Below, in pieces: positions 13,464-64,000 of a stretch of 64,000 bases of DNA. The notes beneath the pieces were generated by a model that had not been told where the DNA came from, ran no database searches, and saw only the letters and a list, made by a program, of their open reading frames with translations. This DNA is from Thiocapsa marina 5811. GTDB lineage: Bacteria > Pseudomonadota > Gammaproteobacteria > Chromatiales > Chromatiaceae. The translations under genes were made by a program, and so were the position numbers. How positions within the stretch are numbered: position 1 is the stretch's first letter; the number at the start of each line of letters is the position of its first letter. Location: positions 1 through 64,000 of the forward strand of contig NZ_AFWV01000005.1 in NCBI RefSeq assembly GCF_000223985.1. The letters run 5' to 3'.

Positions 13464-15826
13464 CGCCAACTGGTGTAAAGCGTCTGTTGCATCCACGGTA
13501 GCCGAATCACCGAGACCGACCATGGGCAGCGGTCCAACAGGATGTCGAGGGTCTTGCGGCTGACCGCCAGCGACCAGTCTTGATCGTCGCGCCGGCTCAG
13601 TCGGCCCGGTCTTCGCAGAAAAGCCTCCCTGAGACCGTCCTCGGAGGTGTTCTTCAGCGCCTTCCAGTTGCCCACGACCCCGACACCCAGGAGTTCCCGA
13701 CTCAGCTCGATCTCCTCCGACCTCAGAGTGATTCCCTCAAGCACCGGAAACCTCGGCTGCAGACCGCATAGGATCTTGTTGAGCAGCAGGTCGGGCTCGC
13801 GACTGTGACTGTTGGCGTCTACGAGGTATTGGAGGAGATGCACCCCACGGCACGCATGCTCGGGTGTCTTGAATCGGTCTCCGTCGAGCAGTTCCAGCGC
13901 CCCGAAGAAGCGCGGCAGGAATGGATGCAGCAGCACCTGACCGGCGTTCTGAACGAACCAGTGCTCTTCCGTGTCATTGCCGGCCTCGGGGACCTGGTGG
14001 GCGGCCGACTGACTGGTCCCAGGGCGCGTCGCCGCCAGTGGCCTGGCGGCCCTAATTCTGGTTTGCACCTCGACGATGAGCGCCTTCAGGTCGCTGTCCC
14101 GGGCGACTACATCCAGGTCCAGGAGCTGCGCCAGCAAATCGTTGGACTGGGCGCGGTCCAGGTCCGCCGTCGCGGCGATACGAGCAAGCACGTCGACCGC
14201 CAGCGACATCTTTCCGCTGAGGTCGGTCGCGGTCCCACGCTGTGTTGCGGCGAACCGGCTCAGCAACTCGTAGGCGTCGCGGTAGGGAGGAACGACCTCC
14301 CCCGAATAGAGATAACGGCGTATCGCCGTCAGCAGCGCTGCCCTGGTCGTCGTCCCTGCCAACCCCCGTGCTTCCACAACCGGGGCTGACGCCGTAGAGT
14401 CCGCAGTCTCCTCCTGTTGCGTCTCCTCCCCTTGGTCGACCAGCGCGTGCAGAAGCTCGGCCAGAACCGAGAAACGCGCCTCGGTCTCGGCCCAACGAGT
14501 TGCGTGGGCCGCCAGGAGCCGAGCGAGTGCGGCCTCGGTGACTCCGAGTCGTAGAGCCAGTGACGCCACTGCGAGCTCCAGCAACAGCCTGGCATCGACG
14601 CCCCCACGCGGGGCCAGGAGCTGCAGGAGCACCACCTGCAGCGCCAACTTCGCAGCCCCGACGCCCAGCATCCCGCGCTCCTCCAAGCGTCGAACCGCGA
14701 GCAGCAAGCTGATCAACAGACCTGCGTAGGATGGCTCCAGGGCGGTGACGAGACGCTCGGCCAAGGCCCCATCGAGATACCTCGACAAACGTCCGATGGT
14801 CCAGGGCCGATGCCGCAACTGGCGCAACAACGCAAGCAGAAAGGCGCGACGCCCTTCGAGCAAGGCCCCGAACCATTGATCGAACTGGTTCAAGACCAGG
14901 CTCAGATGACTTTGGGATATCCGGCCCTCGACGAGTATCAGGCGAAGCGCGTCGAGGTCGTCGACAGGAATCTCGCGGCCGGGGGAGCCCCTGTCGTCCG
15001 AGCCCGATGACTGCGAAGGCGCCGGCTTGGACCTGACAGCCTCGCGCAATGCATTCGTCGCCAGTCCGATCCGGTCGGCGAATCGGGCAAACACGGCCTG
15101 CCCAGGCTCTCCCGTCGCGACCAGGCCGGGTCCGGAGAGGACGACGCCGAACGCCGCGGACCAAAGTTCGCGTTCGACGGTGGCGGCAGGAAGCCCGATC
15201 AATCCCTGGGATCTCTGCAGCGCCACGAGGCTGTCAACAGCGTCTATGATGGCCTCGCCGCGATCCCGGCCAAGGAGACCCAACAGTTCCCTCAGGCGCG
15301 CCTCGGAGCATGCGGCCGTCAGCCGGGGGACCAATACCGGCTCTTTCGACCAGCGCTTCAAGGCCTCCAGCAACTCTTTGGGAGCCGAATGGATCAGTAG
15401 TTCGAGCAAGGCGTCGGTATCCTTGATGCCGCTCTCCAGGGACCAGGGCCGCGCACCGTCAATGAGCAGACAACGCAATTGGGATAACCGAGCCGACACA
15501 TCGGATGCCGCCTCGCCTGCACTTTCCCCCGCTGCGACATTGGACGCCTGGGTCAGCTGTTGACGGATCGCGCCTTGCAGATGGTCGTCCAGTGCCGCGG
15601 CGAGCCGGGCCTCCAAAGCCCCCAGGGATATCGCGCCGAGATCCAGCACGAGGGTGTGCGCTTTGACACGACGGTCCCCGGGTGAGACGGCGTCCAGTAT
15701 GGGGCTCAGTCGCTGTTCGAACCACCGGGCATCAAATCGATTCAGAAGCTCATCCAGATCGAAATCATTTGCCTGCCTTGGCACGGTGAGATCCAGCCGG
15801 AGCGCTCGAATCACGTGAGCAGCCAC
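13460..15826 (-). CDS. Contractile injection system tape measure protein (Pvc14-like)
   Basis: About 788 aa. The N-terminal region (VIRALRLDLTVPRQ, then FEQRLSPILDAV and HTLVLDLGAIS) and the C-terminal block (NAGQVLLHPFLPRFFGALEL, about 600-620, then RLPWMQQTLYTSW at the end) match the eCIS tape-measure family. It sets sheath and tube length and probably fills the tube lumen. The start is uncertain: the frame stays open far upstream into the preceding gene, but family similarity begins at the GTG codons near 15826/15814, so a GTG start is proposed. Stop overlaps the ATPase start (ATGA). Confidence 0.85.
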   Translation of the reverse strand: MAAHVIRALRLDLTVPRQANDFDLDELLNRFDARWFEQRLSPILDAVSPGDRRVKAHTLVLDLGAISLGALEARLAAALDDHLQGAIRQQLTQASNVAAGESAGEAASDVSARLSQLRCLLIDGARPWSLESGIKDTDALLELLIHSAPKELLEALKRWSKEPVLVPRLTAACSEARLRELLGLLGRDRGEAIIDAVDSLVALQRSQGLIGLPAATVERELWSAAFGVVLSGPGLVATGEPGQAVFARFADRIGLATNALREAVRSKPAPSQSSGSDDRGSPGREIPVDDLDALRLILVEGRISQSHLSLVLNQFDQWFGALLEGRRAFLLALLRQLRHRPWTIGRLSRYLDGALAERLVTALEPSYAGLLISLLLAVRRLEERGMLGVGAAKLALQVVLLQLLAPRGGVDARLLLELAVASLALRLGVTEAALARLLAAHATRWAETEARFSVLAELLHALVDQGEETQQEETADSTASAPVVEARGLAGTTTRAALLTAIRRYLYSGEVVPPYRDAYELLSRFAATQRGTATDLSGKMSLAVDVLARIAATADLDRAQSNDLLAQLLDLDVVARDSDLKALIVEVQTRIRAARPLAATRPGTSQSAAHQVPEAGNDTEEHWFVQNAGQVLLHPFLPRFFGALELLDGDRFKTPEHACRGVHLLQYLVDANSHSREPDLLLNKILCGLQPRFPVLEGITLRSEEIELSRELLGVGVVGNWKALKNTSEDGLREAFLRRPGRLSRRDDQDWSLAVSRKTLDILLDRCPWSVSVIRLPWMQQTLYTSWR

Positions 15827-25190: not shown

Positions 25191-26984
25191 TCAGTTGATG
25201 TTGACCAGGCCACCCTTGATGATCATGGTGCCCGAGGCCTCGAGCTGCGCCCTGGCAGACTTGATACCCAGTGTTTGGACCGCCTCGGCTGACACCTTCT
25301 GCGCTGCGGCCTCCAGATTGGCGCCGCTGTCAAGCGTCAGGTTCCCGGCTGCGTTCAATTGGATCTTTCCCTTGGAGCTCAACCTGATGTCCCCTTCACT
25401 CTCCAGGGTGATACCGTCCTTGCTCATGACCACTTTGTTGGCATTGCCGTCCAGAATGCTGACGCGCTGTGCCTCGTCATCCAGTTCGACGACGCGTCCC
25501 TCCGGGGTCTCGATGCGCAACCGCCCCTCGCCGTCGTCGAAGACGATCTTCAACTGCCCGGCGGTCGCGATGGACTTGCGTCGGTTGCCCTCGTCCGGCG
25601 TACAGGGTGGTTGGCGGGGTTTGCTGTGCAGTCCACCGAGGAGAACAGGAGACGAGGGATCCTCCCCGAGAAAACCGATGACGACCTCGTCCCCCGGCTC
25701 CGGAAAAAAACAGAAGCCCGCGTCTTTGCTTGCGTAAGGCTGGGCCAGACGCACCCAGAGATTCCGGGTATCACCGCCGACACAGGGCAAGCTAACCAGG
25801 ACACGTCCCGCGCCATCGGGATCCTCATGGCTCTGCACCACCGTCGCGATCTGCAGCCCCCTGGCTGGCGGCACCAGGCCGCCGGCCGCCGGCCCCTCCA
25901 TCTCGCGGTGACTGTCGCTGAAGGAGCGGGGCGACAAGCCGATGTCGACACGCGTGGTCCAGTCCCCGCGCTCGATGAGGTGGGTGATCCCGCTGAGATA
26001 GGCGTCACCGTTGAACCGGTTTCCAAGGTGCTCGAGGCGCAGCAAGGTGTCGGGCTTGGCCCTCGCATCTCCGGGAAAGGTCGCCCGCCCGCAGATTCGA
26101 GCGATGCGCATGCGACGCAGGAAGCCATCGGCCCATAGCTTCAACTCCTCCGGCTGCTTGTCGGCGAAGGTCCGCAATGAGATGAGATCCGCCCCGGCAC
26201 CGGCCGCCAGCCTGCCACCGTCGAGGTTTCCCTGCTGGTTGACCCTGGGCTCTCTGGCCGTCTCGTCCAAGACAGCCTGCGTTGCGGGATCCCAGGCGCG
26301 ACAGGCGATGGACTCTGCTTGAGCGGTGGCGTCGATATCCAGATCCAAGTCCAGGATGCTCTCGCCAAAGCCGACACCCAGGGTCGCGTCGCCGTCTGTC
26401 TTCGGCTCCCCGATCCGCACCGTGCCATCCTCGACGACGACGACCATCCCGTTGGCCTCGGCGCGGGTGACCAGCAGGTCCCAATCTGTGCAGTCATGCT
26501 GCACCAGCTGGGGATGCGTGACGCTGGTGTCGGCGATCTCGGCGTCGAGATCGTAGACCCCGAGCAGCAGGCGCATCACCTCGCTGTCCTTGCGCTCGGT
26601 GAACAACGCGTCGCGCCGGGCCAAGGTCATCCGCACCGCCACGTCCTTGCAGATCAATCGCAGCTGCGAGGCCCCGCGTCGCGGCACCTTGATGCTGTGC
26701 CGCACGATGACGCCTCGGAATAACCGTTCCCGCTTTCCCTCATATCCGGCTCGAATCTCGATTGCTTTGCCCGGCTCGAAGATCGACGACTGGCTCCCCT
26801 CGAAGCATTGCCGCGCGGGATCGCCATCCCCGATCACCAGGGTGGCGGTGGGAATGCGGTTGACGGCGCGCCGGACCTCGACGGCCCTGACGATGTGATG
26901 CTCGGGGATCGCCCGACCATCGACGGAGACTTGCACCGATGGTCCGAGGCGGCGGCCTTTGCGCGGCGAATCCGACACGATCAA
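25191..26984 (-). CDS. VgrG-like spike/hub protein (Pvc8-like)
   Basis: 597 aa. The N-terminal part resembles the gp27-like hub (GKAIEIRAGYEGKRERLFRG, TDWDLLVTRAEANGMVVVVE). An OB-fold gp5-like domain follows at about 375-460 (DPDGAGRVLVSLPCVGGD, LWVRLAQPYASKDAGFCFFP, GDEVVIGFLGEDPSSPVLLG). The C-terminus is a repeated beta-helix needle (KGKIQLNAAGNLTLDSG). ATG overlaps the preceding stop by 4 nt. It forms the trimeric puncturing spike that carries the PAAR tip. Confidence 0.93.
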   Translation of the reverse strand: MIVSDSPRKGRRLGPSVQVSVDGRAIPEHHIVRAVEVRRAVNRIPTATLVIGDGDPARQCFEGSQSSIFEPGKAIEIRAGYEGKRERLFRGVIVRHSIKVPRRGASQLRLICKDVAVRMTLARRDALFTERKDSEVMRLLLGVYDLDAEIADTSVTHPQLVQHDCTDWDLLVTRAEANGMVVVVEDGTVRIGEPKTDGDATLGVGFGESILDLDLDIDATAQAESIACRAWDPATQAVLDETAREPRVNQQGNLDGGRLAAGAGADLISLRTFADKQPEELKLWADGFLRRMRIARICGRATFPGDARAKPDTLLRLEHLGNRFNGDAYLSGITHLIERGDWTTRVDIGLSPRSFSDSHREMEGPAAGGLVPPARGLQIATVVQSHEDPDGAGRVLVSLPCVGGDTRNLWVRLAQPYASKDAGFCFFPEPGDEVVIGFLGEDPSSPVLLGGLHSKPRQPPCTPDEGNRRKSIATAGQLKIVFDDGEGRLRIETPEGRVVELDDEAQRVSILDGNANKVVMSKDGITLESEGDIRLSSKGKIQLNAAGNLTLDSGANLEAAAQKVSAEAVQTLGIKSARAQLEASGTMIIKGGLVNIN

Positions 26985-28923: not shown

Positions 28924-30987
28924 TCACGCGATCGCTTGCATCTGGGTGAACTCGATCTCGATGAACTCCGCGGGACGCGAGAAGTTCAAACCGACCTTGA
29001 CGAGTAGCAAGCCGTTACGAATGTCGTCCTGGGTGGTACCCGCATCTTCGCCCACCAGCACGTAGTAGGCATCCTCGGGTGCATCCCCCACCAGCGCCTC
29101 CGCGCGCCATTGGGTATACAGGAAGCCGGAGATCATCGACTCGATCCGACTCCAGGTCAGCGGGGTATTCGGCGCGAAGACGAAGTCCTTGACGGCATTC
29201 TTCACCGATTGCCGAATCATGATCATGGTCCGGCGCACATTGATATAGCGCCAATCCTGGCTGTTCCCGTCCAGCGTCCGCGCACCCCATACCGTCAGCC
29301 CGGTCCCCTGAAAGGTGCGCAGGGCGTTGACCGCCTTGCCGCCTTGGGTCGGCGCATTGAGTTCCATCTGCTCGTCGTCGTTGATCTTGACCGCCGGCTC
29401 CACGGCCAGCGCGATCCCGACATTGGCCGGCGCGCGATGGACGCCCTCGGCCTTGTCCACCCTGGCATAGATACCTGCCATGGCCCCGGACGGGGGCAGA
29501 CAATTCAGGGCGGCCAGCGCATCGGACATCGCTTCCGCATAACGCTTGTTTCGATTCAACAACTCGGAGTGAGCTTGCCGACGGATCTCATCATCCAGTC
29601 CGCCGTAATCCGGATTGCCCTCGATGTCGGTAGACAGCTTAACGGACGCATCCGCCGGACCCTCTTGAATGGTTCTTAGCGCCTTGCCTACAAGCAGCCT
29701 CTTAAATTCGTCTTTCGCCTTTGACTTTAACGGCTCCTGCAGTTCGCCCGACACGCCCGAGGGCGTGACCGCCTCTGACCATTTCTGGGCACCGCCCTTA
29801 AGACTGCTCAGATCGGTAATGGCTGCAATGCCAGTAGGATTCGTACCGACCTCAAATGTAATGGCGGTCCCCTCCACCGTGGCTCCACTATCCACGATCT
29901 CTCTCGCTTTGGTCTCGAGTGTGGTTGCAGACTCTAGGAATGTGAGTTGAGGCAGCGGAAGATCTGTATTTCTGGTGAATTCACTCAATAAGAGCGCGCT
30001 GAATACTTCCCGTGCATCCGCTGCCTGCTGATTTGAAATAGCATCTCCCGACGGAAGCGTCGGCGTAACGTGGGATGTAATCTTTCCGACAACTCCTTCA
30101 ACGTCGTACCACTTGGTCAACTGGGTTACTCCCAAACCCCCAATTGTCCCCAACTCGAACTTGAAATTATCCTTCCCATCGTCCCGAATCGTGCCGGCAA
30201 TGTCTATCAGGGCCGTTGGCTCTATCGGTCGCTTGGTTCCGCCCTTCGTCGCGTCGAATCCTTCTCCATCCAAATAGGCCTCCCACAAGATCCGCTTGCG
30301 CAAGGCTTCGTCGAGTACGCGGTAGTCGATGTCCCGGGCCGAGAACACCGCGGTCTTGAGCCACGGATAGTACGCCGCACCGTATTTGAGCGCCCCCGAG
30401 ACCTTTCGGAATTTGTCGATCACGTCATCGGTGGCGTCGTTGGTCCGTGGCTTGTCTCCATCGTACACATCCAGGATGCCGAATCGCGCCCCTGTCTTGT
30501 TGCAGTGCTTCAGGATCGCTTCCGCGACACCCGTACAATCCTCCGACGTCAGACTGACCGCATCTGGAACGACAACCATCGACGGCTCCAACTCTCTCTC
30601 GAGGATGCCTTTATCCGCGAGAGGCACTCTTAGGCGCTCGGCATCTATGCTGACTGAGGCACCGTACGTGCCGACGGATACGATCCAGCATGCTCCACCG
30701 CCATTCGCAAAGAACAACCGCATCGCGGGATAGAGCAGATATCGCTCGAGCGAGGCCGCGAAACTGTCGTTATCTTCGGACACGACGCCCGACAGGTGAG
30801 CCCCGCCAAAGAACCGCTCGAACTCGGCCATGGACGAGATCCGAGTCGGCTTATCCGTCAAGCTCTCTCGCCCACGCACCGCCTTCTCGGTATACCCGAT
30901 GAAAACTGGAATCGCCGTCGGGACCTGAACGATCGAGTTGGCGAACGCGTTCTTCTCTACGATATAGACACCAGGTGTTCTGTACAT
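28924..30987 (-). CDS. Contractile sheath protein (Pvc2-like)
   Basis: 687 aa. The N-terminus (YRTPGVYIVEKNAFANSIVQ, then VPTAIPVFIGYTEKA) and the C-terminus (QDWRYINVRRTMIMIRQSVK, FVFAPNTPLTWSRIESMISG, LNFSRPAEFIEIEFTQ) are diagnostic of tail sheath subunits. It is longer than the shortest eCIS sheaths, with an inserted, more variable central domain around residues 180-480, probably surface exposed. It is the first gene of the cluster; only one sheath gene is present whereas Afp has three. The 285 bases upstream, before the ISAs1 end, should hold the operon promoter, but no clear sigma-70 boxes could be assigned. Confidence 0.94.
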   Translation of the reverse strand: MYRTPGVYIVEKNAFANSIVQVPTAIPVFIGYTEKAVRGRESLTDKPTRISSMAEFERFFGGAHLSGVVSEDNDSFAASLERYLLYPAMRLFFANGGGACWIVSVGTYGASVSIDAERLRVPLADKGILERELEPSMVVVPDAVSLTSEDCTGVAEAILKHCNKTGARFGILDVYDGDKPRTNDATDDVIDKFRKVSGALKYGAAYYPWLKTAVFSARDIDYRVLDEALRKRILWEAYLDGEGFDATKGGTKRPIEPTALIDIAGTIRDDGKDNFKFELGTIGGLGVTQLTKWYDVEGVVGKITSHVTPTLPSGDAISNQQAADAREVFSALLLSEFTRNTDLPLPQLTFLESATTLETKAREIVDSGATVEGTAITFEVGTNPTGIAAITDLSSLKGGAQKWSEAVTPSGVSGELQEPLKSKAKDEFKRLLVGKALRTIQEGPADASVKLSTDIEGNPDYGGLDDEIRRQAHSELLNRNKRYAEAMSDALAALNCLPPSGAMAGIYARVDKAEGVHRAPANVGIALAVEPAVKINDDEQMELNAPTQGGKAVNALRTFQGTGLTVWGARTLDGNSQDWRYINVRRTMIMIRQSVKNAVKDFVFAPNTPLTWSRIESMISGFLYTQWRAEALVGDAPEDAYYVLVGEDAGTTQDDIRNGLLLVKVGLNFSRPAEFIEIEFTQMQAIA

Positions 30988-43235: not shown

Positions 43236-44028
43236 ACCGCGCGGATGGGTCTGCTTTGCGGTGGACCGCCCGCTACGGCCGCGAGTCGCCGTCCAGACCC
43301 AGCTCGCGGCACCGCTTGGCGGCGGCCCGAAAGCGGATGCGCATCTCGGCGATGTGGCGCGCGGCGGCGCGGATGGCGCCGAATCCCTGCTCGGCGTCCT
43401 CCACGAGCGGGCGCTGCCAGTCCCGTGCAATGCCGCGAAAGGCGCTCTTCGGGTAGCGATCTCCGTCGCCCATGCGGATGTCGTCCGACAGATAGACGAC
43501 GCCCGCGGCGGTCTGCATGCACATGGCGGTAGGTGACCCACTCGATTGAGAAGGCGCCGGGGGTGGCGCGGTCGGCCCGCTGCGGGCGCACCCGCACGCC
43601 GATGCGACCCCATGCGCTACGCGGCAGTCCGCGACCGGCCTCCGCCAGGCGTTGCTTGAAGGCGCTGCATCCCTGCTCGGCAGGGCCGCCAGGTTGCGCG
43701 CGATCCAGGCGTCGAGCGCCTCCGCGACATGGCTCGGCGCCGCATCCTCCTCCGTGGCGTCGTCATCCTCGGCGTCCCTGCCCGTTGCGCCGAGCGGGCC
43801 TGCCCGGAAGGCTGCCTCGAGCCTGTGGGCAGGCGGCATGCCGGCCGGGTGTTCGCACCCTCTTATCTTTGGTGAAACAGCGCCCGCTGTTCTCACCTGC
43901 CGCGGGCAGCTTCCGGTCAGGGCAGGCAGTGCCGTGGTCGCTCGGACGCTTGCGGTGTCGCGCTTCCCTCGATCGGAAGGCGCAAGCGCGTTCTCGTCTT
44001 CCGTATTGCCGTTCGGTCGTCGTGTCAT
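43236..44028 (-). pseudogene. Conjugative-element gene, copy 1, frameshifted
   Basis: Pieces on the minus strand include PSHVAEALDAWIARNLAALP, FKQRLAEAGRGLPRSAWGRI, GAFSIEWVTYRHVHADRRGR and YLSDDIRMGDGDRYPKSAFR, ending AEMRIRFRAAAKRCRELGLD, spread over at least two frames. The assembled protein would be about 200 aa. It resembles accessory transfer proteins of integrative elements (MobI-type is a guess from memory). A second degraded copy follows at 44117-44540. Confidence 0.5.
43882..43938 (+). repeat. 57-bp segment inverted relative to its copy at 44558-44614
   Basis: Starts gcccgctgttctcac and ends gcaggcagtgccgtggt. Its reverse complement is at 44558-44614 with only one or two differences, whereas the DNA to its left (43290-43880) matches 44117-44530 in direct orientation. 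So one copy of this short block has flipped. Confidence 0.7.
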
Positions 44029-44116
44029 GGGTTGATCCCTGATCGTTTGGGACGGGCGTTCCTATTCGCTCATCCATCGGGTGGATGTCGCCGGACGGCG
44101 CAAAACGCCGCTCTGG

Positions 44117-44540
44117 TTTCCGTCCAGACCGAGCTTGCGGCACCGCTTGGCGGCGGCCCGAAAGCGGGTGCGCACCTCGGCGAGTTGGCGCGCGGCGGCG
44201 CGGATCGCGCCGAATCCCTGCTCGGCATCCTCCACGAGCGGGCGCTGCCAGGGGCACTGCGGGGAAGTCCGCGACCGGCCTCCGCCAGGCGTTGCTCGAA
44301 GGCGCTGCAGCCTTGCTCGGCGCGCTCCTACAGGGCCGCCAGGTTGCGCGCGACCCAGGCGTCGAGCGCCTCCGCGACATGACTCGGCGCCGCATCCTCC
44401 TCCGTGGCGTCGTCATCCTCGGCCTCCTGCCCGTTGCGCCGAGCGGGCCTGCCCGGAAGGCTGCCTCGAGCCTGTGGGCAGGCGGCACGCCGGCCGGGCG
44501 TTCGCACCCTCTTATCTTTGGTGAAACAGCGAGTGCGACG
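44117..44540 (-). pseudogene. Conjugative-element gene, copy 2, internally deleted
   Basis: Bases 44117-44251 match 43290-43424, and 44262-44524 match about 43618-43880, at roughly 90 percent identity, both in direct orientation. The roughly 190 bases separating the two blocks in copy 1 are missing here. Minus-strand peptides such as DDDATEEDAAPSHVAEALDA and WVARNLAAL are shared with copy 1. A tandem duplication followed by deletion explains it. Confidence 0.6.
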
Positions 44541-44919
44541 CGCCGACCGACCAAGCAACCACGGCACTGCCTGCCCTGACCGGAAGCTGCCCGCGGCAAG
44601 TGAGAACAGCGGGCCCTGCGGGTCGCGTCTGTTTCTCTTTCCCGCGATCGACAGCCGTTTTCCATTGCCGTTCGGCGCCGGGAGGTTAGCACGCGTGATG
44701 CGTCGGGCACCGCCCGGAAAGACACCGTTTTCGTGCCATCTAAACGGCTGGCGTTGCACCGCCTCGACGCCAAGAATGCCGAGCGTTCACTGTCGCCTTC
44801 TTGTGCGCCGATTGCGGATCTCTTGTGAACCTTGTCATCGGAATGCATCGGGACGGCGACGGCGTGAAGCGCGTTTGTGTACCGCCAGTGCATTCGGTGT
44901 GAACCCAACGGGCGGAGCC
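44541..44919. other. Intergenic upstream of the parM-like gene
   Basis: Contains the inverted 57-bp copy (44558-44614). The remainder shows no gene. It should include the promoter of the parM-like gene, but no clear boxes could be called. Confidence 0.4.
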
Positions 44920-46542: not shown

Positions 46543-47766
46543 ATGACGCGCCAGCTTACGATGCCGAGTGAAGGCTCCAAAATGTCAGCCCAAGATCCGA
46601 TTGTCGATTTCCCGGACTCCCTCGACGATCTGGACGCGGAGGATACGCGGTCGGACTCTGCCCCCATAAAGCCATGGGATCCCAATAAGATACGGATTAC
46701 CACCAAGAACTTCACGTTGCGTGAGGTCGTGGACCAGATCGAAGAAAAGGAGATCGATCTGGCACCCGACTTTCAGCGAGACTTCGTCTGGAAGCAGCGG
46801 CAACGAACCCGTCTGGTCGAGTCGGTTCTGCTTGGCATCCCTCTTCCAGCGTTTTATTTCAATCAGGACCGCGATGGAACCTACCAGGTTGTCGACGGCG
46901 TGCAGCGCCTGACGACCATTCGCTTGTTTATGGCCGGCCAACACACATTGGATAAAACCGACCTCGAATATCTTCGTGAGCTGCACGGTCGCACGTACTC
47001 GAACCTGACACCCGTACTGCAGCGCCGGATTCGGACCACCCAAATTGTGGTGCACGTGATCGAGCCCCAGACCCCCGACGAGATCAAGTACGATATTTTC
47101 GGGCGTGTCAATACGTTGGGAGAGCCGTTGTCGGCTCAAGAGATAAGACATGCGATGAGCAAAGATCGATCGCGCCGGTTTCTCCATGAGTTGGTGCAAC
47201 TTAATTCTTTTGACATAGCCACTGATTTCTATTTCTATCGCGGATCAACACAGGCGTCTCCGGGCGGTTTCCGCGACAGCAAGCGTATGACCGATCGAGA
47301 GTTCGCGCTGCGTTTTTGCGCCTTTTGGAATTTTTCGGCGGACGAGTATCGCAAGTTCGAGAATCTTGACGCTTATCTCGTCGAATATACTCGGCGAATC
47401 GACGGTCGTTCGACAAATGGGCCTGCGTTGTCAGACTGCCATCTTAATGAACTCAGCGACGCCTTCAATCGCGGCATGATAAACGCGGCGGGTATCCTCG
47501 GACATGAGGCTTTCCGACGCCTAAATCCAGAAACACTTCGTCGGGGTCCTATCAACAGAGCTGTTTTCGAGGCGCAGAGCATCGCTTTCTCTGGCTATGA
47601 ACTACAGCAACTCAAGCCGCGAGCGAACCGAATTCGAGAAGCGTTGCTTGGGGCATTCGGCGATTCCAATTATGTTCGGGCTGTGACCGTCGGCACCGGC
47701 GATTCAGGTGCGATTGATCTGCGGCTCAACAAAACGCGCGAGTTACTAGCCGAGGCGCTTCAATGA
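46543..47766 (+). CDS. DUF262 (GmrS/ParB-like N-terminal) protein
   Basis: 407 aa from ATG 46543; ATG 46582 (MSAQDPIVDFPDS) with gaagg 7 bases upstream is an equally good start. The DUF262 core is clear: DLAPDFQRDFVWKQRQRTRL, LGIPLPAFYFNQ, VVDGVQRLTTIRLFMAGQHT (usual DGQQRLTT, here DGVQRLTT) and FGRVNTLGEPLSAQEIRHAM. The HNH half (DUF1524) of GmrSD-type enzymes is absent; the C-terminal 200 residues are helical. DUF262 proteins often sense or hydrolyse nucleotides in anti-phage systems. Overlaps the next gene by 4 nt. Confidence 0.88.
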   Translation: MTRQLTMPSEGSKMSAQDPIVDFPDSLDDLDAEDTRSDSAPIKPWDPNKIRITTKNFTLREVVDQIEEKEIDLAPDFQRDFVWKQRQRTRLVESVLLGIPLPAFYFNQDRDGTYQVVDGVQRLTTIRLFMAGQHTLDKTDLEYLRELHGRTYSNLTPVLQRRIRTTQIVVHVIEPQTPDEIKYDIFGRVNTLGEPLSAQEIRHAMSKDRSRRFLHELVQLNSFDIATDFYFYRGSTQASPGGFRDSKRMTDREFALRFCAFWNFSADEYRKFENLDAYLVEYTRRIDGRSTNGPALSDCHLNELSDAFNRGMINAAGILGHEAFRRLNPETLRRGPINRAVFEAQSIAFSGYELQQLKPRANRIREALLGAFGDSNYVRAVTVGTGDSGAIDLRLNKTRELLAEALQ

Positions 47767-48884
47767 TTCACCGAATGGAGATCTTCGGTTTCAAGCGTTT
47801 CGCTGATGACAACTTTGATTTTGCTCCTCTAGTGGTGCTGGCCGGCCTTAACGGTACCGGCAAGACTTCGGTTATTCAGGCATTGCTACTGTGCCGTTCC
47901 GCGCTGGACGCAGAGCGTGGAACAGTGCAGCTTAACGGTGGGCCGTTTTGCTTGGAACTGGGTACCGCAGAGGATATTCATAATCGCAAGTCGACAGGAG
48001 ACATTATCTTTTCGCTAAATGGCGATTTCTGTGGATCACCTGCCACTTGGCGCTATGTGGTGCCTGCACAAGCGCCTGACGCTCTATTTCTCAACATCGT
48101 GGATTCCAAAGCGTCTGCAGGGATTGCCTTCGACATTCATTCAGAGCCCCGGGCCTTTACCTATCTCGGCGCGGAGAGACTAGGCCCCCGCAGTGTATTG
48201 CGTGCGTCACCGGTATCCGATGCGCAGTTGGAAGTCGGAGTGCACGGCGAGTTTTCGGCGCAAGTGCTTGCGGCTCTTGGGGGTCACCCGATGGAGCAAG
48301 CTGATCGACTGCACCCGGATCGGTCCGAGGACGCCGTGCCGTTTCTGAAGTACGAGTTGGAGGCATGGCTCTCGGAGATCGTGCGCCCGATCCAAATCGA
48401 AACAGTCGCGCACGCAGACGGTTTGTTTGCGTCGTTACGTTTCGGTGCGCCCGGCGGTGAGTTTGTCAGCGCACCCAACATGGGGTTCGGTGTGTCCTAT
48501 GCACTACCCGTCGTGCTGGCGGGGCTGATTGCCTTGCGCGGAGGGCTCTTGCTCATTGAAAATCCGGAGGCTCATCTGCATCCGGCTGGGCAGTCTCGCA
48601 TGGGCGTCTTCCTCGCCTGGCTCGCGGGTCACGGTGTTCAAGTGGTTGTCGAGACGCACTCCGACCACGTGCTAAATGGCATTCGGCGGGCGATCGGCGA
48701 GCATGCATTTCTATCCCACAACGACGCGATCATCCATTTCTTCGGTTCGGACGACAACGATGCCTGCGCGACCACCCCGTTGCGGTTCACCCCAAGCGGC
48801 GGTGTTTCGGATTGGCCTCCGGGTTTCTTCGACCAGTACCAGATCGACGTGGCCGCCCTCGGCCGCGTGCGCCGGCGGCGCTGA
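47763..48884 (+). CDS. AAA ATPase, DUF3696 family
   Basis: 373 aa. Walker A VVLAGLNGTGKTSVIQALLL (Lys 34), signature-like region PNMGFGVSYALPVVLAGLIA, Walker B GLLLIENPEAHLHPAGQSRM (about 261-280) and VVVETHSDHVLNGIRRAIGE with the conserved switch His. This is the OLD/RecF-like ABC-ATPase arrangement with the DUF3696 C-terminus. ATG overlaps the DUF262 stop as ATGA. The third gene starts 8 bases after its stop. Likely the energising component of the three-protein system. Confidence 0.88.
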   Translation: MIHRMEIFGFKRFADDNFDFAPLVVLAGLNGTGKTSVIQALLLCRSALDAERGTVQLNGGPFCLELGTAEDIHNRKSTGDIIFSLNGDFCGSPATWRYVVPAQAPDALFLNIVDSKASAGIAFDIHSEPRAFTYLGAERLGPRSVLRASPVSDAQLEVGVHGEFSAQVLAALGGHPMEQADRLHPDRSEDAVPFLKYELEAWLSEIVRPIQIETVAHADGLFASLRFGAPGGEFVSAPNMGFGVSYALPVVLAGLIALRGGLLLIENPEAHLHPAGQSRMGVFLAWLAGHGVQVVVETHSDHVLNGIRRAIGEHAFLSHNDAIIHFFGSDDNDACATTPLRFTPSGGVSDWPPGFFDQYQIDVAALGRVRRRR

Positions 48885-48892
48885 GGCGCTTT

Positions 48893-49888
48893 GTGGCGTT
48901 CGTAATCGACGGGGCCGAGTGGCAGTTCGACGGGTGGTCGGCGGCCGAGATCGAGATAGCGCTCGGGCGATTGCTTGACCGGGTGACTATCGCCCAAGGG
49001 CGTCGGGAGCGGGTTTGGATTGGGGACGATCTTCAGACTCGATCGGTGCTCTGGGGTCTGAGCGTTTGGGAGCTTTGGGGGCCCGAGTGCCCGGTCGATT
49101 TGCCACCAGAATTGCGCCAGGAGCTTGCCGCCATGCTCGGTCGGGCGCCCCTTTATCTGGACGAGGAAGCCTGGCCAGAGGGCATACCGGAGCATACGGA
49201 GATATCTGTATCGGGTTCTCAGCCGTCCGACAATCCCGACGTGGCATGGGCGCACCACAGCGTTCGCTCGGGGCATGCAGTGGCTTGTCTCGGGCTACGA
49301 CGCGCGGGCGTGCATCCAACGGTGACTGCCGCCTGCATCGCGAATGTACATTGGGTCATCGACGAGTCGGGGCACCGTGCTTTTTTCCGGGCGGCGATGG
49401 ACGTGGAACACGACTGCGAGGCTACTCTGGAACGTTTGGCAACACATGCCTTCCCGGATCTCTGTTTCGTCGATGGAATCTGGCGCGGCCTCGGCGACTT
49501 TGCTGGCGGGTACTCGGGAGTACGCGAGCCGCTTCGGGAACTTCTGGCCGTGCTGGATGACCACGGCCATTGGGCGTTTACCGCGCCGCCGCCGGCGATC
49601 CGCGAAGAGGATGAGGTGCCGACCAGGACCGGCGACCCATCCGCGAAGCTCATCCAGCAGCGATTCAATACCTACGGTATCGTGGTGGCGCCGGAGGCAT
49701 TGGACGTACGGCGGGACAAAACGTGCCGGGAGGCCCGAGAGCGCGTTTTTGGAGGCAGAACGCTTTATTGCGAGTGGCACGCGAAGCTGCGCGGCGACCG
49801 CAACCGCGTGCATCTACATCCTCCGGTATCCGAGTCAGAAGACAAACTTGTCGTCGCGATATTTCACGAACACCTTCCGCTTCCGTAA
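48893..49888 (+). CDS. Third component of the DUF262-DUF3696 operon, unknown family
   Basis: 331 aa from GTG 48893, chosen because gagg lies 6 bases upstream and earlier codons overlap the ATPase gene. Contains VWIGDDLQTRSVLWGLSVWE, DVEHDCEATLERLATHAFPD, RTGDPSAKLIQQRFNTYGIV and a C-terminal block ERVFGGRTLYCEWHAKL, HLHPPVSESEDKLVVAIFHE HLPLP. The WHxKL...H.H...VAIFxxHLP pattern looks like a conserved domain of defence-associated proteins, but I cannot name the family or a catalytic site. Operon position suggests effector or partner of the ATPase. Confidence 0.7.
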   Translation: MAFVIDGAEWQFDGWSAAEIEIALGRLLDRVTIAQGRRERVWIGDDLQTRSVLWGLSVWELWGPECPVDLPPELRQELAAMLGRAPLYLDEEAWPEGIPEHTEISVSGSQPSDNPDVAWAHHSVRSGHAVACLGLRRAGVHPTVTAACIANVHWVIDESGHRAFFRAAMDVEHDCEATLERLATHAFPDLCFVDGIWRGLGDFAGGYSGVREPLRELLAVLDDHGHWAFTAPPPAIREEDEVPTRTGDPSAKLIQQRFNTYGIVVAPEALDVRRDKTCREARERVFGGRTLYCEWHAKLRGDRNRVHLHPPVSESEDKLVVAIFHEHLPLP

Positions 49889-49988: not shown

Positions 49989-50067
49989 GGTAGGGTGGAC
50001 GAGCGGGAGCGAAGTCCACCGAACCCCGCGCCGGCGCTGGTGGACTGCGCTTCGCTTGTCCACCCTA
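49989..50067. repeat. Imperfect palindrome (gtagggtggac ... gtccaccctac)
   Basis: Arms gtagggtggacgagcg and cgcttgtccaccctac enclose a second inner pair (agcgaagtccacc / ggtggactgcgct). This is a widespread proteobacterial intergenic repeat type, able to form a long hairpin. It follows the defence operon by about 100 bases and could act in termination or mRNA stabilisation. Confidence 0.75.
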
Positions 50068-50098
50068 CAGCGCAGAATCATCGCAGTGGCCGGCGTTA

Positions 50099-58200: not shown

Positions 58201-58447
58201 GCTGGACCGCAAGGACGGCCCCCAGCTCCTGCTCGATCTGGGCGGCGACGAGCCCGGCCAGCAGCAGCGCGAGCGCGATCTGGCAGCGCTGCGCCGCCGT
58301 CTCAAAGAGATCCCGGACGAGATCCAGCGCGAATCCGACCATATCCGCGCCCGCTTCGCGAACCCTAGTGCCCGCCTCTTTCCGGTCGCCGTCACCTGGC
58401 TCATCCCGCGCAAGGCAGTGCTTGCCATCACCGGAGGTCGGCCATGA
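55268..58447 (+). CDS. drmD: DISARM SNF2-like helicase DrmD
   Basis: 1059 aa from ATG 55268, which follows aaggaagag; ATG 55244 is possible. SF2/SNF2 motifs: I LIADDVGLGKTIEAGLVVQE, Ia VLIVCPSSLQVQWKEEM, II LLIVDEAHNVAPSGRGKYAT, III HKLFLSATPHNGYSESF, V RILLATDAASEGVNLQ, VI NPNRMEQRNGRVDRHGQKAA. Length and the helical C-terminal extension (RVERTKNLEKNLDDLAEKEA) fit DrmD of class 1 DISARM, an anti-phage system pairing methylation with restriction. Overlaps the drmMI start by 4 nt. Confidence 0.87.
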   Translation: MLPVPVVGQLAIVRKRPFVVTEIIPAAPGIGGDAVRRTNLIRLSSVEDDGLGEELQVIWELEPGTAVHEKSMLPDPDTFDHPKRLQAFLDAVRWGAVSQADDKALQSPFRSGIEVDEYQLDPVVRALSMPRVNLLIADDVGLGKTIEAGLVVQEMILRHRVRSVLIVCPSSLQVQWKEEMRDKFGLEFRIVDSESISQLRRKRGIHVNPWSHFPRLITSIDYLKRERPLRALRETLPAGEQSAYPRAYDLLIVDEAHNVAPSGRGKYATDSMRTLAIRLLAPHFEHKLFLSATPHNGYSESFAALLELLDSQRFARAVTPDRNQLDAVMVRRMKSELKLRWDGSRRFAERVVKHLEVPYTEEERQAHRALQTYSALRLKQATSDGERMAAEFVLKLLKKRLFSSPAAFGITLEKHIASVGRRAAASTAAVARDIEDFSDDYADDEAYELETGEVVGSVSQALSPISAEEQALLRQLSAYAAKTSLRPDSKARTLIDWLKDTLRPGGQWNQARVIIFTEYRATQNWLYDLLAREGFAEEGRLEMIFGGMPNDRREPIKAAFQAHPKESAVRILLATDAASEGVNLQNHCSRLIHFEIPWNPNRMEQRNGRVDRHGQKAAEVQIHHFVGRGFETAQISDKPAELEDDLEFLMRAALKVETIREDLGKVGPVIARQVEEAMLGRRLHLDTSRAEQEAEPVRRMLKFERKLREQLEKLAAQLNDTQHELNLTPEHIENVVRVGLDLAGQPALIPAEVPGLWPDPTGLRKTCPVFRLPALANSWAQCADGLAHPHTKRMRPIVFDAALATGRDDVVLAHLNHRLVQMCLRLLRAEIWSLGGQGDARAKRLSRVSACVVDDSALTHPVVIAHGRIIVLGGDNHRLHEEIIHAGGALIEGRLSRLNVGDTKAALAAATDTPASPAIEERFQALWPKHRDALLAALEARRVERTKNLEKNLDDLAEKEANKLKAVMTELHRAIQAELDRKDGPQLLLDLGGDEPGQQQRERDLAALRRRLKEIPDEIQRESDHIRARFANPSARLFPVAVTWLIPRKAVLAITGGRP

Positions 58448-61129
58448 GCGTCACCCGCCACCACGCCGAATGGCTGTCCCTGGTTGAGGTCTCCGGCCCC
58501 TTCGTCTCCCTGCCGGTGCTGCTGCGCACCTTCCCGCAGGGGCTGGAGCCGCGCGACCCGGTCCAGGCCAAGGCCCTGCGCGCCGCCTACGAGACCTGGC
58601 AGGACCACCCGAGCGCGCCCGGTCAGCAACGCGCCTGGGTGCTGCACGTCCTTACCCAGCTACTCGGCTATCCGGCTGGACAACTCGCGGAGGGCCAGAC
58701 CCTGCCTGCGGGTCTGGAAGCCAACATGCCTGAGTTGGGCGAGACTCTGCGTCCGGACTTCGCGCTCCTCGGTTCCGCGGGCAGCGACACGGCCGGTCAG
58801 GCGCAGATCCTCATCGCCAGCTACCCCGCCGAACAGGCCCTGGATCGCCCCGTCATCGGCAGGCACTGGAAGGCCACCCCCGCTACCCGGATGATGGAGT
58901 TGCTCCACGGGGCCAACGTGTCCGTGGGGCTGGTCACCAACGGCGAGCAGTGGATGCTGGTCTATGCCCCGCGCGGCGAGACCAGCGGCTACGCCTCCTG
59001 GTACGCTGCCCTCTGGTTGGACGAGCCGCTGACGCTGTGTGCTTTCCATTCCCTGCTCGGCGTGCGCCGCCTGCTCGGGGTGGCCGCGGACAGCACCCTG
59101 TCGGCCCTGCTCAAGGCGAGCGCGGAGGATCAGCAGGAGGTCACCGACCAACTCGGCTATCAGGTGCGCGAGGCGGTCGAGGTGCTGGTGCAGTCCTTCG
59201 ATGCACTGGACAAGGACAGCGGCCGGACCCTGCTCAAAGGTGTCGACCCCGGCGACCAATACGACGCCGCCCTGACCATCATGATGCGGATGGTCTTCCT
59301 CTTCTCCGCCGAAGAGCGCGGGCTGCTCCATTTGGGCAAGCCGCTGTACGACGACAACTACGCCGTCTCCACTCTGCAGGAACAGTTGCAGGAGGTCGCA
59401 GACCGTTCCGGGGAGGAGGTGCTGGAGCGCCGCACCGATGCCTGGGTACGGCTGCTCGCCACCTTCCGCGCCGTGCATGGCGGTCTCCAGCACCAGGATC
59501 TGCTGATGCCGGCCTACGGCGGTTCCCTGTTCGATCCCGACCGCTACCCTTTCCTCGAAGGACGCGCCGCGGGCACCCGCTGGCGCCATACCACCGCCGA
59601 CCCCCTGGCGATCAACAACCGGGTCGTGCTGCATCTGCTGAACTCGCTGCAACGGCTGCGCACCAAGGCCGGCGGCGCGGGCCAGGGCGGCTACGAGACC
59701 CGGCGCGTCTCCTTCCGGGCGCTCGGCGTGGAGCAGATCGGCCATGTCTACGAGGGCCTGCTCGACCACGCCGCAGTACGCGCCGCCGAGCCCGTTCTGG
59801 GTATCAAAGGGACGCGCAAGAAGGAACCGGAGATCGCGCTGGCCGAGCTGGAGTCCCGGCTGGCCCGGGGCGAAGACAAGCTCATCGACTTTCTCAAAGA
59901 CGAGACCGGCCGCTCCGTTGCGGCCCTGCGTCGTGAGCTGGGCGAAGGCGGCCTGCTCGACGCCCATCGGCTGCACCTGGCCTGCGATCAGGACGAGACC
60001 CTGGTCGCCCGCCTGCAGCCCTTTGTCGGCCTGATCCGCGACGACTCCTTCGAGCGCCCGTTCGTGGTGCTGCCCGGCAGCGTTTATGTCACTGCGGGCA
60101 CCAACCGCCGCAGTACCGGCACCCACTACACCCCGCCCTCGCTCACCGAGCCCATCGTCCAGCACACCCTGGAGCCGCTGGTCTACGAAGGCCCCGCCGA
60201 GGGCTGGCCCCGCGATCAGTGGCGGCTCAAGTCACCCAAGGAGATCCTGGCGCTCAAGATCTGCGACATGGCGATGGGCTCCGGTGCCTTCCTGGTGCAA
60301 GCCTGCCGTTATCTGGCTGAACGCTTGGTGGAAGCCTGGGAGAACGCAGAGCGCCAACATCCCGGCCAGATCCTCGTCAGCCCGGATGGTCAGTTCTCAG
60401 AGGGTGCTCCGAGCGAGCGCCTGGTGCCGGCGGATGCGGCCGAGCGCATCGCCATCGCCCGCCGCGTGGTGGCCGACCGCTGCCTTTACGGCGTCGACAT
60501 CAACCCGATGGCAGTGGAGATGGCCAAGCTCTCGTTGTGGCTCATCACGATGGACAAGAACCGGCCGTTTACCTTTCTGGATCATGCGTTCAAGTGCGGG
60601 GATTCGTTGCTGGGCATTACCTCGCTGGAACAGCTGGAGAACTTTAGCCTGCGTCCCGGTGGCGGCAAGCAGATGGCGTTCTCCACCCTGAACCTGTGGC
60701 GGCATATCGAGGAGGCCAAGAGGAAACGTGAGGCGCTGGAGGCCATGCCGTCCGATACTCGAGAGCAGATCGTGGCCAAGGCGGCGCTCTATGTCGAGGC
60801 GGAGGAGGCGGTGGCTAAGCTTAATGCGGCGGCGGATGTTCTGGTGGCGGTAGAACTGAAAGGCTTAAAAGGGCACGCGTACGACGCCGAGCGGGAGCAT
60901 TCGGCAGATAACGTGATGGCATATTGGGCTGATGGACTGCCAGAATTGCAGGACTTTTCCAGTCAGTTGCTCGTTGGGCGAAGTACCCTCCAATGGGCCT
61001 TGGTGTTTCCTGAAATTATAGGAAACAAAGGGTTCGACGCCTTTGTCGGTAATCCACCATTTCTTGGGGGAAAGAGGATCGGCCAGACCCTTGGTGACGA
61101 TTATTTCGGGTTGCTTAAAGAGGTTATAA
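58444..61129 (+). pseudogene. drmMI: DISARM adenine methyltransferase DrmMI, 5' part (interrupted)
   Basis: About 895 codons before the insertion. Eco57I/PglX-like N6-adenine methyltransferase: SAM-binding motif LKICDMAMGSGAFLVQACRY (about 602-621), LYGVDINPMAVEMAKLSLWL (about 682-701) and catalytic FVGNPPFLGGKRIGQ (NPPF about 870). The N-terminal 550 residues are the specificity/helical region. Just past NPPF the gene is cut at TTATAA by an IS1182-family element; the frame then runs 37 codons into the element. Overlaps drmD by ATGA. Confidence 0.88.
61124..61129. repeat. Target duplication TTATAA, left copy
   Basis: TTATAA here and at 62986-62991 flank the IS1182-family element. Joining the flanks through one copy restores the drmMI frame, which supports a 6-bp target duplication of a palindromic site. 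Confidence 0.8.
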
Positions 61130-62985
61130 TTAGTGCTCGACCGAAAACCCCGTTTTTTCCCGCCCCGGCACCTCGCCCTGAATGGCGGGCCGGGGCCAGC
61201 GTATTCAATCGAGCCGCATTCGATGCGGATTCGTGGAATTAAACCGGATTAATGCGAATGACTCGCATCACCGGCATTCCGCAGGCGCACCACTCCCGTG
61301 GGGGTCGGCACCGGATCCGATCGAAAGGGTCAAGCAGCGCGTCGGCGGCGCTGTCGTTCCCGCTCGCGCCGCGCCTCCTCGGCCTCCTGCGCCAGCAGCA
61401 GCGTACCGATGCGCTGGAGGTTGCGCGCCACCACCGCCAAGGCGACATAGCGCTTGAAGCCGTCGATCCCGTGATCGCGACAGCGGTCGAGCCCGTGGAC
61501 CTCCAGCGCGTTGATGGCGGACTCCACGGCGGAGTGTTTGCGGCGCAGCTGGATGAAGCGCGGATCGCCTTCGCGTTCGCGCTCCGCGGCCGAGCACTTG
61601 CCCTTCTTCGGCAGCACCGGAAAGTCGATCACCTCGGCCAGGGCGCGTTGGTTGGCGGGGCTGTGAAAGCCCTTGTCCATGCTGACGCTCCCGACCGCCG
61701 GGAAGCGCGCCACGATCTCTTCCACCAAGGGAACGGCGACCTGATCGTCGGTGATGCGCTCCATGACCCGATGGTGCAGGATGAAGCCGTGCTGATCTTC
61801 GCCGATCGCCACGCGCAGACCCAGCTCCACCGGCACGCCGGCCTTGCCTTTGCTGATCCACTCGGTATGGGGTTGGAAGATCGAGAAGACCTTCTCGGCA
61901 TGCGGGATGGTCTGACCGCACAGCACGCGGCGGCGGATCTGGTCGATCTGCCGCTCGCCGTGGGCGATGAAGGCATCGAGCGGCGCGAGCTGGACGTCCG
62001 GCAACGCGGCGATCAGGTGCAGGCGGATGCGCGTCTCGCGCGCCCGCATCAGAAAGCCCCCGGCCAGGTCCAGGTAGGCGGCATGGGCCGCTTCGATCTC
62101 GATACGCCGTGCGGCCCGTTTCTCCGGATCCTGCGCCGTGGAGTGCTTGAGGGTTTGCGCCCGCCGATAGGCTTTCTTCAGGCAGCGCACGTTGTAGGCG
62201 CTTTGCCGCCAATCGCTCAGGCCGGCGTCCTCGCACAATCCGGCGCTGGTCTCGATGGCCTTGCGCACCGCATCGAAGAGCAGGTTGATGTCGGTCGGAT
62301 AATGCACGTGGGTCTCGACCACGAAGGAGTCACAGCGCACCGCGAGGGAATCGTCCGGACTTTTTTTTACCAAGGCATGGCCGGCACCCACCAGCGCTTG
62401 GTTGATGCGCTCGAGCAGCTCGGGCGTGAACAGGCTCAGGTTGTCCTTGAGCGTCTGCAGATTGTAGGTCGTGTCGTCGGCCCAGTCGGCATGGCCGAGC
62501 ATCTTGCGCAGAGTGGTGTGCTGATTGGCCAGCTCGAGAATGCGGTCGTAATCGGCGTTCAGTCCCAAGCGCAGCACGCCGAGCACCAGGATCGCCCACT
62601 GCGACAGACCGGGCCGGCCGGTCTCGGGGCTCGCCTTGCCGTCCTCGCCGCTGCCCGGCGGGCGCAGCTCGGCGAGGATCGCGAACACCGGCTCACGCAC
62701 CTGCGGGGTGGTGTAGATGTGCTGCAGTCCACGCAAGAGCTGCGGGATATCGTCGCGCGAGCGCGGATCCAGAGCGATGGCGGCGATATCCTCTTCGCCG
62801 AGTTTCAATTGCGGATCGATCACGTTGCGCATAGTGGCTCGAATCACGACGTTCATGAAGACTCATGGCATGCCCCGGCGAAAATCGGCCGAAATCGCCT
62901 TCGAGTCATCAGGAAATCAATAGGTTAGCGTTTTCTCTGCCCCTCTCGATCGAAAATCGGCATGATCTTCGATCATGGGGACATA
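61130..62985 (-). mobile_element. IS1182-family insertion sequence in drmMI
   Basis: 1856 bp between two TTATAA copies, with one transposase gene on the minus strand. Terminal inverted repeats are weak by eye. A GC-rich hairpin (cccgccccggca / tggcgggccggggc, about 61160-61197) lies near the left end. Palindromic target preference is known in this family. Confidence 0.85.
61330..62856 (-). CDS. IS1182-family transposase
   Basis: 508 aa, intact. Begins MNVVIRATMRNVIDPQLKLG, with the N-terminal DUF772-type region (RPGLSQWAILVLGVLRLGLN), VRCDSFVVETHVHYPTDINL (first catalytic Asp of the DDE core), GSVSMDKGFHSPANQRALAE (second) and RRKHSAVESAINALEVHGLD (Glu region). The C-terminus is arginine-rich. 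With the frame intact, the element may still be active. Confidence 0.88.
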   Translation of the reverse strand: MNVVIRATMRNVIDPQLKLGEEDIAAIALDPRSRDDIPQLLRGLQHIYTTPQVREPVFAILAELRPPGSGEDGKASPETGRPGLSQWAILVLGVLRLGLNADYDRILELANQHTTLRKMLGHADWADDTTYNLQTLKDNLSLFTPELLERINQALVGAGHALVKKSPDDSLAVRCDSFVVETHVHYPTDINLLFDAVRKAIETSAGLCEDAGLSDWRQSAYNVRCLKKAYRRAQTLKHSTAQDPEKRAARRIEIEAAHAAYLDLAGGFLMRARETRIRLHLIAALPDVQLAPLDAFIAHGERQIDQIRRRVLCGQTIPHAEKVFSIFQPHTEWISKGKAGVPVELGLRVAIGEDQHGFILHHRVMERITDDQVAVPLVEEIVARFPAVGSVSMDKGFHSPANQRALAEVIDFPVLPKKGKCSAAEREREGDPRFIQLRRKHSAVESAINALEVHGLDRCRDHGIDGFKRYVALAVVARNLQRIGTLLLAQEAEEARRERERQRRRRAA

Positions 62986-62991
62986 TTATAA
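62986..62991. repeat. Target duplication TTATAA, right copy
   Basis: Right copy of the 6-bp duplication; drmMI coding sequence resumes directly after it at 62992. Confidence 0.8.
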
Positions 62992-64000
62992 CCCACTGTT
63001 CGGAAATAGAAAACGTGGTTTCTGTTCAGGCACTAATTAATACTAAGGGTGCTGGAGACCTGTCTGTATATTTCTTTAAGCGAGCATTGATACTGATGAA
63101 AGAAGGAGGCGTCTCAGGGTTAATAGCAACTGACACTTTCATTGAAGGAGACACACAGAGATGTGGCCCAGATCACCTCTTGAATAGCGGGGCTTCTTTT
63201 GCACGGGCTATTACCAGCCTGAAATGGCCTGGCGCAGCGGCTGTTAATGTATGTGTTGTTCATGCCTACAAGGGGGATTGGGCCGGCGGATGTTTTATTA
63301 ACAATAAGCCGGTGAAGTCTATAAGCGCCTTGCTCTCGGAAGATCCTGGGCATATGGATGTGGTGCAACTTAGTACCAGAAAAAGAATGGCGGCGAAGGG
63401 GGTTACACCGCTGGGCGACGGATTTGTGCTGTCCCCATCGTTAGCACGTGAATTGTGTCTTGACGACGAGCGGAATCACACTGTCATTAAGCCGTATCTG
63501 ATTGGTCAGGATTTCAATACTGATGTTCTGCAAAGGCCAAGCCGCTTCCTTATTGACTTTGGTGATATGTCGGAAGATGAGGCAAGAAGTTATCGGCTTC
63601 CCTTCGCAAGAGTTGAGGAGTTGGTACGCCCGGTCAGGGAGCGGTTGCACCGACAAATCCACGAATCATGTTTTTGGAAGCATTGGGATCGACGAACAGC
63701 TTTTCTTTCATCTCTCCCAAAGGGTGATGTTCTTGTAACTTCACTAATTAGTAAACACTGGGCACTGGCTTTCGTCGCGAATGGTTACGTTTATGACCAA
63801 AAAGTTGTCGTTTTCGCCGAAAATACGTATCAATGTTTTTGTATATACCAGAGCAACATCCATGAAGCGTGGGCGCGTCGCGAAGGTGGCTTAAATATCG
63901 GCCCAACGCCTTCCTACACTGTTAGCACAAATTTCAATACCTTCGCACCTCCAGAAGGGTTTCCATCAAATCTGGATTCGCACACCGGTGAGCGATTAGG
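62992..64000 (+). pseudogene. drmMI: DrmMI, 3' part, running off the window
   Basis: From 62992 the frame is open to the last base: THCSEIENVVSVQALINTKG, AGDLSVYFFKRALILMKEGG, VSGLIATDTFIEGDTQRCGP, LNIGPTPSYTVSTNFNTFAP and others, matching the region after NPPF in DrmMI/PglX-type methyltransferases. When joined to GLLKEVI of the 5' part through one TTATAA the reading frame is continuous. This part is noticeably more AT-rich than the 5' half. No start codon of its own with a ribosome site was seen. Confidence 0.85.

Follow-up and report, generated by a model that had tools for sequence, protein, structure and literature searches.

The 64,000-nucleotide window from Thiocapsa marina 5811 analysed here (contig NZ_AFWV01000005.1, positions 1 to 64,000) carries an operon of three genes that almost certainly constitutes a Menshen antiphage system, nsnA-nsnB-nsnC, with a predicted role in defence. 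The third protein, NsnC, ends in a module that, from its modelled structure, probably has a RelE/ParE fold. Taking the proposal as a whole, we consider it likely that the operon is a Menshen system whose effector is this RelE/ParE-fold part of NsnC.

The assignment rests on near-full-length matches to models of the PADLOC database. NsnA matches PDLC03877 (E 7.6e-113, residues 29-406), NsnB matches PDLC03878 (E 8.6e-94, residues 1-366), and NsnC matches PDLC03914 (E 1.1e-103, residues 2-330 of 331, model positions 2-314 of 314). The names of these models, NsnA, NsnB and NsnC, are those of what we take to be the components of Menshen, a system reportedly described by Millman et al. in 2022. The operon encodes a DUF262 protein without DUF1524, a DUF3696 ATPase and a protein that matches the NsnC model, in adjacent A-B-C order on one strand and with tight spacing, and we found no difference that sets it apart from Menshen. 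The excerpt of PMC10952713 describes Menshen as a DUF262 gene without DUF1524 whose partner is a predicted OLD nuclease, although no TOPRIM domain was found in NsnB here, and states that resistance is lost on mutation or deletion of the DUF262 gene. Menshen is also cited in the excerpts of PMC12704722 and PMC12839542.

An earlier note on this DNA, made from the sequence alone, had proposed a defence-type operon of a DUF262 protein, a DUF3696 ATPase and a third protein, and this much is borne out, the trio being the components of Menshen in PADLOC. The earlier note had put no name to this exact trio, and had itself offered a match to a named system as grounds for giving up its proposal; the PADLOC matches are such a match. 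The idea of a new, unnamed three-gene system draws on the absence of a name for the third protein in Pfam and NCBIfam and on a literature search that gave no paper combining DUF262 and DUF3696 (the full Menshen papers lie outside its coverage), but the PADLOC matches, near full length and in the right order, rule it out, and we give it next to no credence. Since the operon is another instance of a named system, its novelty is low.

The description of the third protein as unrecognised holds for Pfam and NCBIfam, neither of which has a family matching NsnC, and fails for PADLOC, which has a model of its own for it. A structure prediction of this protein had been suggested, and it points to a RelE/ParE-like fold for the C-terminal part. 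The AlphaFold2 (AF2) model has a predicted local distance difference test (pLDDT) score of 92.6 and a predicted template modelling (pTM) score of 0.88, and the structural matches of residues 184-331 span most or all of the small toxins that they match, for example 82 of the 82 residues of RelE (4fxe_E). The catalytic positions of RelE are K52, K54, R61 and R81, and H296, K298, R305 and H327 of NsnC are similarly spaced along the sequence. ParE chains, which have the same fold, are also found among the structural matches (ranks 37, 45 and 48-50, with rank 9 titled YoeB/ParE), and would fit a ParE-like domain that poisons DNA gyrase instead of cutting mRNA. We think this improbable, given that YoeB, YafQ and RelE rows outrank those five ParE rows and that NsnC conserves H, K, R and E, unlike ParE toxins, for which we know of no conserved set of catalytic residues.

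While the predicted fold of residues 184-331 resembles that of the RelE/YoeB/HigB/YafQ/ParE superfamily, no significant sequence-profile link joins NsnC to it. A Foldseek search against BFVD gave no match at E <= 0.001. A sequence search of solved structures gave none for the NsnC of the window up to E 1 and none for the protein of locus L107, and the profile of 26 third proteins described below (A5) gave only six weak, chance-like rows, the best at E 0.055. No Pfam toxin family matched any of these 26 NsnC members at E <= 1. The C-terminal module was also compared by hhalign with profiles from genome loci for ParE (26 sequences), RelE-like (5) and Gp49 (6), from which three antitoxin-looking rows of the ParE set and one wrong-frame row of the Gp49 set had been dropped: the probabilities are 1.2-3.3%. 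Thirty column shuffles give at most 0.2-0.5%; however, an unrelated pair, Gp49 against NsnA, reaches 1.8%, and for this reason the toxin scores are uninterpretable. The type represented by L107 and L109 was tried as a sequence bridge to HigB and failed in profile comparison. NsnC also departs from the superfamily in that its module is fused behind another domain and has an insertion in its middle, and in that its partners are two ATPase/NTPase-type proteins, with no antitoxin gene recognised in the operon. The excerpt of PMC12926258 has Menshen and RelE in separate table rows and draws no link between them. Literature searches on NsnC with phage returned unrelated matches only, and those on Menshen and NsnB returned nothing more on NsnC, the main Menshen papers being outside their coverage; the structural proposal for NsnC may already have been made by Li et al. 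(2025, gkaf357), in a paper on Menshen.

Types differ greatly in their third proteins. We compared them half by half, using disjoint groups; the profile of the C-terminal module (CT) contains t2c and t5c members, and its matches to these are not independent. Compared with those of five other types, the C-terminal half of the window's type gives hhalign probabilities of 98.9, 97.6, 95.5, 76.6 and 10.7%, whereas the N-terminal halves do not exceed 30.6% in any of 15 pairs. Thus, the N-terminus of NsnC is type-specific and the C-terminus is common to the types. The C-terminal block that the earlier note picked out as conserved-looking does prove to be what the family conserves. Of the 26 proteins in A5, 23 match the NsnC model that the window's protein matches; all 26 have H296 and R305, 25 have K298 (the remaining one has R), 24 have E268 and 22 have H327. 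A second set, A6, comprises 24 of these proteins (L104 and L116 unused). Left out of A5 were the plasmid-record loci L080-L085, the broken copies L052, L056 and L070, the duplicates or near-duplicates L058, L097, L101, L102 and L119, L115 (no third gene in the locus), and the loci whose third gene lacks the visible motif, namely L050, L054, L059, L060, L061, L099, L107-L109, L113 and L117.

The C-terminal module is not confined to NsnC. It also ends two proteins of the type of HEC-07, a PADLOC candidate system (542-544 amino acids; L073 4107-5741 and L075 3698-5326), which have a different N-terminal region and around which neither nsnA nor nsnB was found within the 6.6 and 9.0 kb fetched. In L073, a gene for an IetA-like ATPase lies close to the HEC-07-type gene. 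Conversely, the protein of L054 (3713-4513) matches an NsnC model at its N-terminus (E 3.1e-10) and carries DUF4160 in the C-terminal slot (E 1.4e-5, above the cut-off of that family); the DUF4160 part matches the DhiT toxin model weakly (E 0.0015, scoring 19 bits where the cut-off is 100). NsnC proteins of L060 and L084 (PDLC03880) have, by eye, PLD-like HDRY...TSG motifs in the same slot, with no Pfam PLD match. Given that HEC-07 shares the module and that DUF4160 and PLD-like parts replace it, the C-terminal end of NsnC looks like a swappable effector slot, albeit from few examples.

These observations bear on the main rival explanation, in which the common C-terminal module is a docking or scaffold part that binds NsnA and NsnB, and the effector proper would be the variable N-terminal module. 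That the C-terminal module stays constant across NsnC types favours such a part, and it tells against an effector at the C-terminus. However, the module also ends the HEC-07-type proteins, near which no nsnA or nsnB was found, other toxin- or nuclease-like parts occupy the slot in L054, L060 and L084, and conservation of the polar residues E268, H296, K298 and R305 from type to type points to an active site. We therefore regard the docking explanation as unlikely, though it deserves to be kept in mind, and hold it reasonably likely that the C-terminal domain of NsnC is the effector.

NsnA and NsnB both probably bind nucleotides, as indicated by the DGVQR motif of NsnA and by the intact Walker and H-loop motifs of NsnB. 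NsnA matches GmrSD_N/DUF262 in Pfam (E 2e-27), its sole Pfam family at E <= 0.1, and DUF1524 was not matched; the absence of the DUF1524/HNH half, already noticed in the sequence, is confirmed. Its DGVQR motif (D118-G119-V120-Q121-R122), which does not vary among the 8 aligned NsnA proteins, is the counterpart of DGQQR, given in the excerpt of PMC10952713 as a motif of DUF262 proteins. NsnA thus shares the DUF262 domain and DGxQR motif with GmrSD, BrxU and SspE (DUF262 plus DUF1524) but lacks their DUF1524 nuclease domain, and membership of GmrSD was rejected on that ground. NsnB matches AAA_15, AAA_21 and DUF3696 (E 5.5e-11), and has the Walker A motif GLNGTGKTS, in which G28, N30, G31, G33 and K34 are invariant in 11 of 11 aligned NsnB proteins, as well as ENPEAHLHP and ETHSDH. 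It had been called an OLD-like ATPase with intact Walker motifs, which is right for the ATPase part and its motifs and wrong for a full OLD protein, as no TOPRIM is among the nine Pfam families listed at E <= 0.1. NsnB therefore resembles OLD, GajA of Gabija and PtuA in its ATPase domain and differs from them in having no detectable TOPRIM after it, and OLD membership was rejected. The description of the Menshen partner as a predicted OLD nuclease in the excerpt of PMC10952713 would favour a DNA nuclease activity of NsnB as the effector, with NsnC as an accessory. But the match of the 373-residue NsnB to its PADLOC model spans nearly its full length, with AAA and DUF3696 matches and no TOPRIM match at E <= 0.1, and we consider this explanation very improbable.

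In the explanation that we prefer, NsnA, as a ParB/Srx-type NTPase, and NsnB, as an ABC/SMC-type ATPase, would form the sensing and gating part, and NsnC would be the effector, with a type-specific N-terminal module followed by the RelE/ParE-fold domain. This domain would be kept inactive in the uninfected cell, and nucleotide turnover by NsnA and NsnB would release it upon infection. Once released, it would cleave mRNA, most probably at the ribosome in the manner of RelE, HigB and YoeB, and translation, and with it phage growth, would stop. We infer the gating by NsnA and NsnB, the ribonuclease activity and the infection trigger; that the domain has ribonuclease chemistry seems to us an even call. 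A bolder and tentative view, to which we give rather less than even weight, is that Menshen is a toxin-antitoxin-style weapon in which NsnC offers an interchangeable toxin slot, the module is traded with HEC-07, NsnA and NsnB replace the antitoxin and infection releases the toxin; the slot would hold a RelE-fold toxin in most types seen and a DUF4160/DhiT-like or PLD-like one in others.

The trio recurs elsewhere, as a survey of co-occurrence, also suggested in the earlier note, makes clear. The order DUF262, DUF3696, hypothetical protein is annotated in five of the six plasmid regions opened (Burkholderia glumae, Pantoea, Methylobacterium, Campylobacter and Photobacterium), and the three open reading frames are present, unannotated, in the sixth, from Ensifer. 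In the viral collection, NsnA adjoins NsnB in 19 of 22 loci found through NsnB, at least three pairs of which are duplicates or near-duplicates; two of the other loci start at a contig end (L097, L113), and L117 has no NsnA. Only these 22 were chosen through NsnB alone, as the 51-row neighbourhood table mixes duplicates with loci chosen through NsnA or NsnC. Among 204 genomes, NsnA matches 15 places at E <= 1.3e-93, 13 of which, the window included, were assessed; L062, which ends at a contig end, and a place 287 bases from a contig start were left out. NsnB follows NsnA in 13/13 (once as a 92-residue remnant, in L052), and in 11/13 the gene after NsnB either matches NsnC or bears the C-terminal module of NsnC. 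A different open reading frame follows in L059 and L061, two related loci: that of L059 (3769-4992) has a NACHT domain and no PADLOC family, and that of L061 (1745-2950) shares 87% identity with it across 309 residues. None of the 11 places examined (L063-L069, L076-L079) among the weaker NsnA places (28 in total) has NsnB, and DUF262 alone is therefore no marker of Menshen. No NsnC match was found in the phage collection, and a scan of viral_contigs with A1 gave 16 pattern sites and no confirmed relative. Decayed Menshen loci were also seen, namely a short open reading frame that, by eye, begins like nsnA and finishes like nsnC (L071 907-1335), an nsnC split into two overlapping frames (L056 3715-4729), and an nsnB remnant with an nsnC fragment (L052 2533-3466). 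Another contig of the T. marina genome (L121 1289-3129) has a second DUF262 gene, in a two-gene pair with an open reading frame that looks, by eye, nucleotidyltransferase-like; it is not Menshen.

Features of the nsnA-nsnB-nsnC operon, in window positions
Feature	Position	Strand	Basis
nsnA: DUF262 (GmrSD N-terminal, ParB/Srx-like NTPase) protein, 407 amino acids	46543..47766	+	PADLOC and Pfam
DGVQR motif (NsnA), corresponding to DGQQR of the nucleotide pocket in DUF262 proteins	46894..46908	+	alignment
nsnB: ABC/SMC-like ATPase with DUF3696 C-terminus, 373 amino acids	47763..48884	+	PADLOC and Pfam
Walker A of NsnB, GLNGTGKTS	47844..47870	+	alignment
nsnC: third protein, 331 amino acids, GTG start	48893..49888	+	PADLOC, AF2 model
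NsnC N-terminal module, approximately residues 1-166, type-specific alpha/beta domain	48893..49390	+	Rossmann-like matches, weak
NsnC C-terminal module, residues 184-331, predicted RelE/ParE-fold effector	49442..49885	+	conserved E268, H296-x-K298, R305, H327

The coordinates of the open reading frames agree with the arrangement first noticed, with all three genes on the + strand, a 4-nucleotide overlap between nsnA and nsnB and an 8-nucleotide gap between nsnB and nsnC. The start of nsnA is uncertain, with further in-frame ATGs at codons 7 and 14. Of the relatives found, a Chromatiaceae metagenome bin is the closest, with protein identities of 79% for nsnA (359 residues), 77% for nsnB and 83% for nsnC. 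Against this relative, the ratios of nonsynonymous to synonymous substitution rates (dN/dS) are 0.13 for nsnB, 0.21 for nsnC and 0.05 for nsnA, the last from 359 codons, as the relative's contig begins inside the gene, and with a dS of 2.76, near saturation. Purifying selection thus acts on all three genes, and the low ratios, together with the homologous trios elsewhere, mark the three open reading frames as real genes. A promoter scan found none (1.4 expected), and a terminator scan predicted eight (4.2 expected), which is uninformative. Upstream of the operon lies a duplicated stretch (43289-44618) of four direct-repeat families (132, 106, 97 and 68 nucleotides), 90-98% identical and spaced by 640-831, plus an 87-nucleotide inverted pair. 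Right after nsnC (approximately 49990-50070) is, by eye, a palindromic pair resembling repetitive extragenic palindromes (REP), GTAGGGTGGAC...GTCCACC and its counterpart.

The operon had been placed beside a reverse transcriptase, recD2 and DISARM, and profile matches confirm all three. The reverse transcriptase resembles Drt4 and Drt6 (PADLOC E 2.7e-179 and 6.3e-176); recD2 and DISARM drmD and drmMI lie near the operon, and drmA and drmB lie beyond the window edge, preceded by SoFic and a 555-residue open reading frame with no PADLOC match. In this DISARM stretch (58444-64000, and on into L120 2366-3922), drmMI is in two pieces of 932 and 518 amino acids, the second matching the C-terminal part of DrmMI, split by a 558-residue open reading frame (61252-62928) that matches nothing significantly in Pfam, NCBIfam or PADLOC. 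Farther away, on the - strand, is a contractile-injection-system-like cluster (3190-30987) with a tail-sheath C-terminal domain (28924-30987), a spike/baseplate V domain (25191-26984), an AAA ATPase (12123-13523) and several very large open reading frames without a Pfam match at E <= 1e-5.

The proposal for NsnC gives the third component of Menshen a concrete and testable role, that of a predicted RelE-fold module with conserved polar residues. If it is true, Menshen would join the systems that recruit toxins of toxin-antitoxin pairs as antiphage effectors.

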